52,559 nt of DNA from Candidatus Dormiibacterota bacterium (GTDB taxonomy: Bacteria; Chloroflexota; Dormibacteria; Dormibacterales; Dormibacteraceae): positions 1 through 52,559 of the forward strand of contig PLYZ01000029.1 of assembly GCA_003151935.1 (NCBI GenBank). Reading direction: 5' to 3'. The position numbers and the translations under genes are program-made. Numbering within the stretch: the first letter of the stretch is position 1; each line of letters opens with the position of its first letter. Below are positions 9,353 through 11,913 of this stretch, piece by piece. Under the pieces are notes generated by a model that saw only the letters and a program-made list of their open reading frames with translations, had not been told where the DNA came from and searched no databases.

Positions 9353-9745
9353 CTAAAACTCGGCTGGTCCGATGACGCCCACAACGCTGGATCCGCCCGC
9401 TTTCAGCTTTGCATCCGTAGTCAAGAGCCGGCACTTCAATATTCGTGCCAAAGCAAGGTACTCGGCGTCGTAGGTCTTGGCCCACCCCAAACGGTCGGCG
9501 ATCCGCCACGCTTCTTCTATGAGGCCCTTGGGCCGTCGAGGGCTGACTGCAGCAACAGACAGCCGTTTCAGCGCGATGTTTGCGAGCTCGCCGGAGATTT
9601 CCTTGCGCCACCGCAGTTCGTGTAGTACAGAGGAAGCCTCGGACCACATCAAATGAGGCGCCACCAGCTCTTCCCGGCCGAGGGCCTTCAGCCCAGTCTC
9701 AGATAAGCAGGCGGTGATTACGACCGCAGCGTCGACAACCAACAC
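9353..9745 (-). CDS. PIN-domain ribonuclease, probable toxin (VapC-like)
   Basis: A 130-residue PIN domain, the usual size for VapC-type toxins, which cleave RNA using acidic residues around Mg2+. The acidic positions are visible: VVDAAVVITA near the start, WSEASSVLHELR, KTYDAEYLALA and LLTTDAKL near the end. I start at GTG 9743-9745, one base after the stop of the HTH antitoxin gene. The frame extends further upstream, but only over the antitoxin gene. The one-base spacing and gene order fit a toxin-antitoxin operon. Confidence 0.8.
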   Translation of the reverse strand: MLVVDAAVVITACLSETGLKALGREELVAPHLMWSEASSVLHELRWRKEISGELANIALKRLSVAAVSPRRPKGLIEEAWRIADRLGWAKTYDAEYLALARILKCRLLTTDAKLKAGGSSVVGVIGPAEF

Positions 9746-9746
9746 G

Positions 9747-9992
9747 TCAGCGAGAGGCGCGCGAAGACCGAATCGCAGCCACGACGTCGGGCATCCGTTC
9801 GCCGGTGGCCGTGCGCTGCCAGGGCGCTGGAAGCGGCAGCGTGGCATCACCGGTCAGGTGGGCCAAGTCGTCCTCATCGATCAGGTGCTGCGTGCCGATC
9901 CTGGTCGCCTTTAGCCTGCCCGAACGGATCCAGCGGCGCACCGTTTCTGGGTCTCGTTTGGTTCGGCGGGCTGCTTCCGGCACTGTAAGCAT
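9747..9992 (-). CDS. Excisionase-type helix-turn-helix protein, probable antitoxin
   Basis: An 81-residue protein whose first 50 residues form a MerR/excisionase-type helix-turn-helix: LTVPEAARRTKRDPETVRRW, then IRSGRLKATRIGTQHLIDEDDL. The C-terminal 30 residues (PAPWQRTATGERMPDVV) would be the toxin-binding tail. It lies directly upstream of the PIN-domain gene, whose start follows after one base. In this type of pair the HTH protein usually neutralises the toxin and represses the operon. A possible leftward promoter is just upstream of its ATG. Confidence 0.8.
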   Translation of the reverse strand: MLTVPEAARRTKRDPETVRRWIRSGRLKATRIGTQHLIDEDDLAHLTGDATLPLPAPWQRTATGERMPDVVAAIRSSRASR

Positions 9993-10312: not shown

Positions 10313-10341
10313 TTGACGATCGGGCTTGTGGCTGTTATATG
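10313..10341 (+). promoter_or_regulatory. Extended -10 promoter of the small secreted-peptide gene
   Basis: TTGACG (10313-10318), a 17-base spacer, and TATATG (10336-10341) preceded directly by TGT (10333-10335, the TGn of an extended -10). The predicted start near 10348 gives a leader of about 40 bases that ends in the AGGAGG site of the peptide gene. Confidence 0.6.
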
Positions 10342-10389
10342 GCCCCCAACGGCCGGCGCCGTCCGGCTCATTCCATAGGAGGCGCAACC

Positions 10390-10485
10390 ATGCGCAGCTT
10401 CATTCTCTCCTCGGTCCTAGCCCTCGCTGCATTGATGCTGACCGTTGTCACGGTCTTGGCAGACAGCACAGGGCCCGGAATTTAG
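10390..10485 (+). CDS. 31-residue secreted peptide (candidate signalling pre-peptide)
   Basis: A very short gene that I support on three grounds. It has a consensus ribosome site AGGAGG (10377-10382) seven bases before ATG 10390. It has a well-formed extended -10 promoter 49 bases upstream. Its product, MRSFILSSVLALAALMLTVV followed by TVLADSTGPGI, looks like a Sec signal sequence: basic residue 2-3, hydrophobic core at 4-23, and a possible VLA-D cleavage site leaving DSTGPGI. That is the size and form of Phr/PapR-type pre-peptides. The next gene encodes an HTH-TPR protein, the architecture of RRNPP peptide receptors. No family match can be claimed. It could also be a small membrane protein or a decayed leader. 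Confidence 0.55.
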   Translation: MRSFILSSVLALAALMLTVVTVLADSTGPGI

Positions 10486-10497
10486 TCCGAGCGTTCG

Positions 10498-10582
10498 GCC
10501 CGCGTGGCTTTCATTACAACCTCCAGACCATGGGCGTGATATAACGCCGCTATCACCAAGCGTCAAGCCAAGCCACGCGGGC
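10498..10582 (+). promoter_or_regulatory. 13-bp perfect inverted repeat with nested alternative hairpins upstream of the HTH-TPR gene
   Basis: GCCCGCGTGGCTT (10498-10510) is the exact reverse complement of AAGCCACGCGGGC (10570-10582), with a 59-base loop. The loop holds two mutually exclusive small hairpins: GGCGT/ACGCC (10533-10537 with 10544-10548) and GTGATA/TATCAC (10536-10541 with 10551-10556). There is no T-run, so a simple terminator is unlikely. The right arm lies inside the apparent N-terminal coding frame of the regulator. A structured leader affecting translation of the regulator is a reasonable inference. Confidence 0.5.
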
Positions 10583-10647
10583 GCCTGCCCGGCATCGAGG
10601 TCGATCCTGCACTCGTCAGGCAGGCTCGACTTGACGCCGGACTCAGC

Positions 10648-11913
10648 ATGTCTCGACTGGCCGGATCGGACTTCACCCGACAGACAGTCTTCCTGATCGA
10701 GGCGGGCCAGACCCGGCCTTCAATGCGAACGCTCGAGATCATTGCCAGCCGGACTGGAAAGCCAGTTCGACACTTTCTCAGGGAATCTTCAGTAAATCCA
10801 CGGTCGGACGGTCGCGCGGTGGCTGATGCTCGGGTGGAAGAGCTCCAGGCCCTCTGCTTGCAACTCCAGTTCGACCAGGCAATCGCGCTGGGCCTTCCGC
10901 TGCTTGAGCACCCGATGGCGCCGACGGTTGAAGCTTATGTAAGGCACTACGTAGGTCAGGCCTTGGTGCGCTCAATGCGCCCTGATGAGGGCTTGGAGCA
11001 CTTACGCCGTGCGCAGGTCCTTCTCGAACATGAGCCGGACCCTTGGCTGGCTGTCGAGTGCGCCGACTGGGAAGCCAGCGCTCTCTACTTGAAAGAGGAC
11101 GCTCGGGCCCTGTCGGTTGCCGAGAGGGCGCTCACCTTGTGTCGCACAACCCAGCCCCGACTTCCTGGAACTGAAGCTCGGATTCTCGAGCACATCGCCA
11201 CCATCCACGTAAAGAACCACACGTATGACCGGGCCATAGCCTTCTATGAAGAAGCGCTTCATGTGGCCGGCACCATGCGCGATCTACCGCGACTAGGCAG
11301 GACATATCACGGCCTCAGCATCGCCTACCAGGAGCGTGGTGACATCGGCAGGGCGATCGAATACACCCACAAGGCTCTTGCGCTTTATGCCCTTGAACAT
11401 GACACGGCGCTGCTGGCTCGTGGCGAGAACGAGCTCGGCCTGCTTCTGATGCGACAGGGCCAGATGGAGCGGGCGGGGGAAACTCTTCGATCCGCCTTGG
11501 CACATTTCGACGAAGCTGGCACCGAGGTGGCGAAGAGCCACGTGCTACTGAGCCTCGGCGAACTTCAGCTACGAGTCGGGCGGTATGCCGATGGCATCGT
11601 GTTTGTCAAAAAGGCGATCGATCTGGCGAAGCGACTCGACGAACGCCTGGCTCAGGCAAGCGGACATGGACTGCTCGGCCAGCTGTACGAGCGTGGCGAC
11701 AAGCACGAGCTAGCCGATAAGCAGTTCCGTCTGGCAATACGACTGCTCGGTGGGCTGGGACTGAGAGAACGACTCGCCGAAGCTCACGCCGCGTACGCGG
11801 AGGTACTTGACGCGCGCGGCGACGGCCGCAGTGCCAGCCGGCACTGGAAACTGGCCGCCAAGCTCGCCTTGCGGCGGCAATCCGTCGACGCCCCAGCCAC
11901 GCGAGCCGTCTAG
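10648..11913 (+). CDS. HTH-TPR transcriptional regulator (RRNPP-like architecture)
   Basis: A 421-residue protein from ATG 10648: the second half of a Cro/CI-type helix-turn-helix (about residues 1-50, TRQTVFLIEAGQTRP), then about 350 residues of helical repeats with TPR signatures (AFYEEALHVAG, GLSIAYQERGDIGRAIEYTHKAL, GELQLRVGRYADGIVFVKKAI, YERGDKHELADKQFRLAI). HTH plus TPR is the architecture of RRNPP receptors (PlcR, NprR, Rap without HTH), which bind small re-imported peptides. The first HTH helix (ALVRQARLDAGLS) is encoded in frame upstream, back to 10540, but no ATG, GTG or TTG occurs there. Initiation may use CTG 10585 or ATC 10552, or the gene may be damaged. A 31-residue secreted-peptide gene lies directly upstream. 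Confidence 0.8.
   Translation: MSRLAGSDFTRQTVFLIEAGQTRPSMRTLEIIASRTGKPVRHFLRESSVNPRSDGRAVADARVEELQALCLQLQFDQAIALGLPLLEHPMAPTVEAYVRHYVGQALVRSMRPDEGLEHLRRAQVLLEHEPDPWLAVECADWEASALYLKEDARALSVAERALTLCRTTQPRLPGTEARILEHIATIHVKNHTYDRAIAFYEEALHVAGTMRDLPRLGRTYHGLSIAYQERGDIGRAIEYTHKALALYALEHDTALLARGENELGLLLMRQGQMERAGETLRSALAHFDEAGTEVAKSHVLLSLGELQLRVGRYADGIVFVKKAIDLAKRLDERLAQASGHGLLGQLYERGDKHELADKQFRLAIRLLGGLGLRERLAEAHAAYAEVLDARGDGRSASRHWKLAAKLALRRQSVDAPATRAV

Follow-up and report, generated by a model that had tools for sequence, protein, structure and literature searches.

The window analysed here is a stretch of 52,559 nucleotides from a Candidatus Dormiibacterota MAG (G000, 2.94 Mb, 99.6% complete). 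An earlier note had described an extended -10 promoter, an AGGAGG and a 31-codon gene upstream of an HTH-TPR gene, and every one of these elements was located where that note had put it (Table 1). Comparison of the peptide promoter with those of orthologous loci indicated that CTTGAC and a TATAT -10 are kept in L009-L011. In an alignment of five orthologues, GGAGG of the Shine-Dalgarno sequence was present in 5/5, and the arms of the leader dyad covaried in L012 (GCCAGC/GCTGGC). This dyad could be a hairpin or an operator, and its function remains putative. The peptide ORF runs from the ATG at 10390 to a TAG stop at 10483-10485 and its product reads MRSFILSSVLALAALMLTVVTVLA followed by DSTGPGI. 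By rule, this propeptide has a basic n-region, a hydrophobic core and an A-x-A-type site, and the precursor holds a single copy of the presumed pheromone. The peptide gene is separated from the open regulator frame by 54 nt.

Table 1 Features of the peptide/regulator locus (positions in the window).
Feature	Position	Strand	Details and basis
Peptide-gene promoter	10313..10341	+	TTGACG 10313-10318, 17-nt spacer, extended -10; read in sequence
Extended -10 of peptide gene	TG 10333-10334, TATATG 10336-10341	+	Written TGT-TATATG, 10333-10341
GCCGG...CCGGC dyad, leader of peptide mRNA	10352..10370	+	Alignment, five orthologues
Shine-Dalgarno AGGAGG of peptide gene	10377..10382	+	7 nt before ATG 10390
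Putative pre-pheromone gene, 31 aa, MRSFILSSVLALAALMLTVVTVLADSTGPGI	10390..10485	+	Conservation beside regulators; purifying selection
Predicted mature pheromone DSTGPGI after VLA cleavage site	10462..10482	+	-3/-1 rule; cleavage inferred
13-nt perfect inverted repeat	Left arm 10498-10510 GCCCGCGTGGCTT, right arm 10570-10582 AAGCCACGCGGGC		Flanks regulator promoter and start
Regulator's own -10 TATAAC	10540..10545	+	Intergenic-region comparison; inferred
HTH-TPR receptor/regulator, HTH_3 then nine TPR-type helical hairpins	10552..11913	+	Pfam, AlphaFold, homologues

The open frame of the regulator extends from 10540 to 11913 (457 codons), and its first ATG, GTG or TTG is the ATG at 10648. A start at this codon would cut away the beginning of the HTH; judging from the sequence, the true start is therefore probably at or near the ATC at 10552, just past the TATAAC -10. 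Transcription of the regulator probably begins at a leaderless promoter of its own, downstream of the peptide gene. The ATC is conserved in L009-L011 and the window (ATA in L012), 6-7 nt past the -10, and other clades have GTG or ATG at this place. Non-canonical AUC/AUA initiation in the window clade (window, L009-L012) is possible. Pfam searches identified HTH_3 at residues 26-77 of the long frame (26.0 bits, cut-off 23) and a TPR_12 match in three stretches (E 9.1e-17). The AlphaFold model showed an HTH and nine two-helix repeats, with a mean pLDDT of 87.7 and 391 of 483 residues at or above 90. The inverted repeat is kept in L009, L010 and L011 with arms of 12-13 nt and a spacing of 59-62 nt. 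It represents a possible operator or hairpin of putative function; its right arm is also under coding constraint. Adjoining the cassette on the minus strand (9353-9992), a PIN-domain ORF (9353-9850) overlaps an HTH_17/excisionase-like ORF (9747-9992), and the two are likely a toxin-antitoxin pair.

Homologues of the regulator were found in 38/42 genomes of the source's own family and, in families of the same class (E 1e-20), in 18/18 genomes of f3, 0/16 of f2 and 0/16 of f4. We scanned 330 nt upstream of 70 homologues from the source's bacterial family for same-strand ORFs of 24-45 aa with a Shine-Dalgarno sequence, an early basic residue and a hydrophobic core. Such a Sec-like ORF lay directly upstream of 44 of the 70 regulators; in the window's family it was on the same strand, 13-137 nt from the regulator. 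The background, taken from the remainder of these loci and from the opposite strand, was 8 ORFs in 585,370 start positions, equivalent to 0.004 per 300 nt, and shuffled upstream regions contained such an ORF in 7/1440 cases. A chance ORF was rejected on the basis of these two controls. A chance small membrane peptide beside a TPR regulator, which the earlier note had kept as its alternative, is excluded by the recurrence. That note would have given up its own proposal had the peptide gene been missing beside orthologous regulators; it is kept beside orthologues and most paralogues, and diversifies with them. On its contig C19, the source genome itself has another such pair, whose predicted mature end is EGVPGCCL. 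The scale of the observation is well beyond a single locus; dozens of related soil bacteria carry such a pair.

On the tree, the regulators that lack a peptide fall almost entirely into a single clade (L003, L028-L034 and relatives), pairing being almost universal elsewhere. In this clade, no candidate was found on either strand from about 1 kb upstream to 0.8 kb downstream, and its regulators may be orphan receptors. The non-coding upstream region is conserved in this clade (L003, L028, L029, L033, L034, L036, L060, L071, L072, L077) and contains a GCAGGTCGCGGT...ACCGCGACCTGC-type hairpin and a TTAACTTAACANCGTTAAG dyad. At L045 (G030:C9:14500-20600), two tandem regulators lie behind the peptide gene and the second is broken by a TAG, suggesting that one copy is decaying. 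No convincing peptide was found for the Ktedonobacteria-like relatives (f19). No relative was found among viral contigs and phage records, and a phage or arbitrium-like origin was rejected on this ground.

The peptides are mostly 31-32 aa long, start with MR[KR] and end in a short variable tail after an A-x-A-type site. With the cleavage point set by rule at the last such site, without length preference, the mature length was 7-8 residues in 50 of 60 peptides, against 10.7 expected from shuffled tails. On the tree, the tails grouped by regulator clade: DSTGPG[IV] in the window and L009-L012, xxIGPTP(K), xxxPPCC(S)-type and WPPxx. Substitution patterns without coding constraint were the other result that would have counted against the proposal of the earlier note; instead, the peptide is under purifying selection, with a pN/pS in the window clade (5 species) of 0.20 over the 7 mature residues and 0.53 over the signal part. 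The ratio was below 1 in all peptide groups tested. Distances between mature peptides correlated with distances between regulators (Mantel r = 0.59, 0/2000 permutations as high), and so did those between signal parts (r = 0.73). Since the signal part correlates too, as linked genes would, the correlation indicates common descent of the pair and is not a proof of contact. A large clade (L002, L053, L058, L068-L070, L074, L075, L078-L081 and relatives) has two adjacent C-terminal cysteines (PPCC, GGCC), and the sequence of these ends suggests that the putative signal contains a disulphide, binds metal or is modified.

Regulators of family f3 carry MRRFLNPWVLMVIAAAVLSCAEVWPNPT and variants (of the type MRRF...SCA followed by EVWPNPT). 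In a sister f3 clade (L122, L127-L129, L131, L132), the secreted precursors are 60-77 aa long with 2-3 [ED]x(x)WPN copies. In a third group within f3, the peptide gene, which encodes MYRLTALIVSVVAAILAVADSFPSPR and relatives, is transcribed divergently and was found on the opposite strand in L134-L136. In a second order within this GTDB phylum, presumed to be Chloroflexota, 22 of 25 orthologous regulators (L170-L194) have beside them a divergent gene for a secreted propeptide of 43-92 aa. Several of these propeptides have tandem DPW/DPG motifs: FPEDPWD...FPEDPWD...FPEDPWP in L181, VDPGYPQ twice in L170, and DPGDGGGF twice in L188 and L191. In a tree, these regulators fall into separate well-supported clades. 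Short motifs repeated after the signal sequence have been described for the duplicated pheromones in Phr precursors (PMC11343458).

We consider it very probable that the pair consists of an exported and re-imported oligopeptide pheromone and a cytoplasmic HTH-TPR receptor working in an RRNPP-like mode; cleavage, import, binding, autoregulation and density sensing are all inferred. According to this model, the 31-aa product would be exported via Sec and cut by signal peptidase behind VLA, freeing the heptapeptide DSTGPGI. At sufficient concentration, the peptide would re-enter the cell, probably with the help of an oligopeptide ABC transporter, and bind the concave TPR surface of the adjoining HTH-TPR protein, changing the way this protein binds DNA. 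Its most likely direct target would be the promoter region of peptide and regulator (autoregulation), plus unknown genes. The source genome encodes six oligopeptide-binding SBP_bac_5 proteins; such importers are widespread, so their presence proves little. In 8/8 members of the IGPTP clade (L043 with one mismatch), a TTGAC-N6/7-GTCAA dyad, such as TTGAGTTGACAGTGCTTGTCAACTCAA in L024, lies over the -35 of the peptide promoter. In the absence of binding data, these dyads are operator candidates. AlphaFold models of in-frame read-through fusions of the window pair and the WPN pair L120 left the peptide unplaced, with a pLDDT below 50 for peptide and linker; in such a fusion the C-terminus of the peptide is blocked, and docking is tested only poorly. 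ORF inspection found no neighbouring gene common to the window, L038 and L039. The differing neighbours therefore suggest no target, and shared target genes beside the pair were rejected.

Other functions can be proposed for a small ORF placed 13-137 nt upstream of a regulator on the same strand, as it is in the window's family, with a conserved inverted repeat between the two genes. This arrangement would suit a cis-acting leader peptide, whereby translation of or stalling on the ORF controls the downstream regulator by SecM- or TnaC-like attenuation. We regard this as improbable: the regulator seems to have its own leaderless promoter past the peptide gene, and the opposite-strand peptide genes of L134-L136 and of the second order could not be used for attenuation in cis. 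Placement on either strand and tandem motif copies, which suit released peptides and not arrest sequences, both argue against it.

That the product is about three quarters hydrophobic, and that a PIN/antitoxin-like pair lies next door, could instead point to a small hydrophobic membrane protein or type I toxin-like toxin with a dedicated regulator. Such a product would hardly be expected to have a clean cleavage site followed by a polar, Pro/Gly-rich and clade-specific end of 7-8 aa, nor would its longer relatives keep the motif in tandem behind the signal; with regulators that are HTH-TPR throughout, we give this explanation very little credence. A secreted antimicrobial or other exported peptide, its synthesis controlled by a TPR regulator that does not bind it, would share the export-type precursor and the adjoining regulator, and the two-Cys ends of one clade would fit a modified peptide. 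It appears highly unlikely to us, as receptor and mature peptide co-diverge and no conserved maturation or immunity gene was found beside the pair, the neighbours in the window, L038 and L039 being different.

The pheromone/receptor reading points to peptide-based cell-to-cell signalling in a group from which no such system appears to have been reported. In the open-licence literature, surveys of peptide quorum sensing with cytoplasmic TPR receptors cover Gram-positive bacteria only, mainly Bacillota (PMC9765709, PMC10075063, PMC12700828), and treat RRNPPA in Bacillota alone. In the same literature, we found no report of such systems in Chloroflexota or Dormibacterota, although a report that we have not seen is possible. 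On balance, we favour the broader hypothesis that Chloroflexota, including Dormibacterota, have their own large and diversified oligopeptide quorum-sensing family, with HTH-TPR receptors, heptapeptide or tandem-copy pheromones and several independent channels per genome, which arose separately from the RRNPP systems of Bacillota or long before them. Should the inferred mode of action hold for these pairs, a soil phylum with few cultured members would have many peptide channels with signals that can be read from the genome and synthesised as 7-8-mers. It would also provide an outgroup for tracing how RRNPP arose, and clade-specific pairs of peptide and receptor with which specificity could be studied. 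The second order (L170-L194), with DPW/DPG propeptides beside 22/25 regulators, could merit a study of its own.

RRNPP systems are found in Bacillota and their mobile elements; the mature C-terminal oligopeptide usually has 5-10 residues, is re-imported by Opp and is bound in the TPR groove. The window system, in Candidatus Dormiibacterota/Chloroflexota, lies outside this range. The length criterion is met by the 7-8 residues assigned to 50/60 mature peptides, on the cleavage rule and without biochemical data. The signature used by RRNPP_detector requires a TPR receptor of 250-500 aa, with an N-terminal HTH in DNA-binding members, and a propeptide of 10-100 aa located between -60 and 400 bp from the receptor, with a Sec tag detected by SignalP or PrediSi (PMC10075063). 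The window pair (457 codons, 31 aa, 54 nt) meets the criteria for receptor length and TPR, HTH, propeptide size and distance. Fold searches returned NprR (5dbk), RapI (4i1a), PlcR (3u3w) and phage Rap (8rsv) among the matches, with a moderate fold similarity (TM by target length 0.72 for 5dbk and 0.60 for 3u3w). In fold and profile searches, LGN/Pins and consensus TPRs outscored Rap, NprR and PlcR, the best matches being eukaryotic TPR proteins. RNPP_C (PF18768) had no match in the source genome or the window protein (Pfam, E 0.1); the control genomes were also without an above-cut-off match, leaving this test little power. The fit to the signature in length, domains, distance and precursor type indicates RRNPP-like working; as eukaryotic TPRs score first and the weak RNPP_C test found no match, membership by descent is not established. 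The proposal of an RRNPP-like system in a non-Firmicute thus holds as a mode of working, on the strength of pairing, conservation and constraint. It does not extend to membership of the homologous RRNPP family, and it leaves peptide binding, import and the regulated genes at the level of inference.

Like the RRNPP(A) systems of Bacillota (Rap, Rgg, NprR, PlcR-PapR, PrgX, AimR), those described here combine an adjacent pair, a small precursor (here Sec-like by sequence rule) and a short, here predicted, C-terminal pheromone with a cytoplasmic TPR receptor, often with an HTH; also shared are genomes with several paralogous pairs, pheromones specific to a lineage and some tandem copies (PMC10075063, PMC9765709, PMC11343458). 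They differ in the phylum, in a peptide gene that is upstream or divergent and apparently transcribed separately from a probably leaderless regulator gene, and in having nine TPR hairpins and no Pfam RNPP_C match. To our knowledge, STGPG, IGPTP, PPCC, WPN and DPW are not pheromone motifs of Bacillota. Weak TPR similarity links the regulators to actinobacterial TPR regulators of the NsdA/AfsR type, with NCBIfam matches far below cut-off (NsdA_fam_reg against L098, 4.3e-12; AfsR against the window protein, 5.5e-14); we know of no secreted-peptide partner for regulators of this type. In PlcR-PapR and NprR-NprX, as here, the receptor has an HTH and TPRs, and the pheromone is, as predicted here, a short C-terminal piece of a secreted precursor. 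Their peptide gene lies downstream of the receptor gene, whereas the peptide gene described here precedes the receptor gene or is divergent. Rap proteins have no HTH DNA-binding domain and the window precursor is single-copy, but the Rap-Phr systems with duplicated pheromones (Phr3T, Phr105) contain repeated near-identical copies, as do the WPN and DPW precursors.
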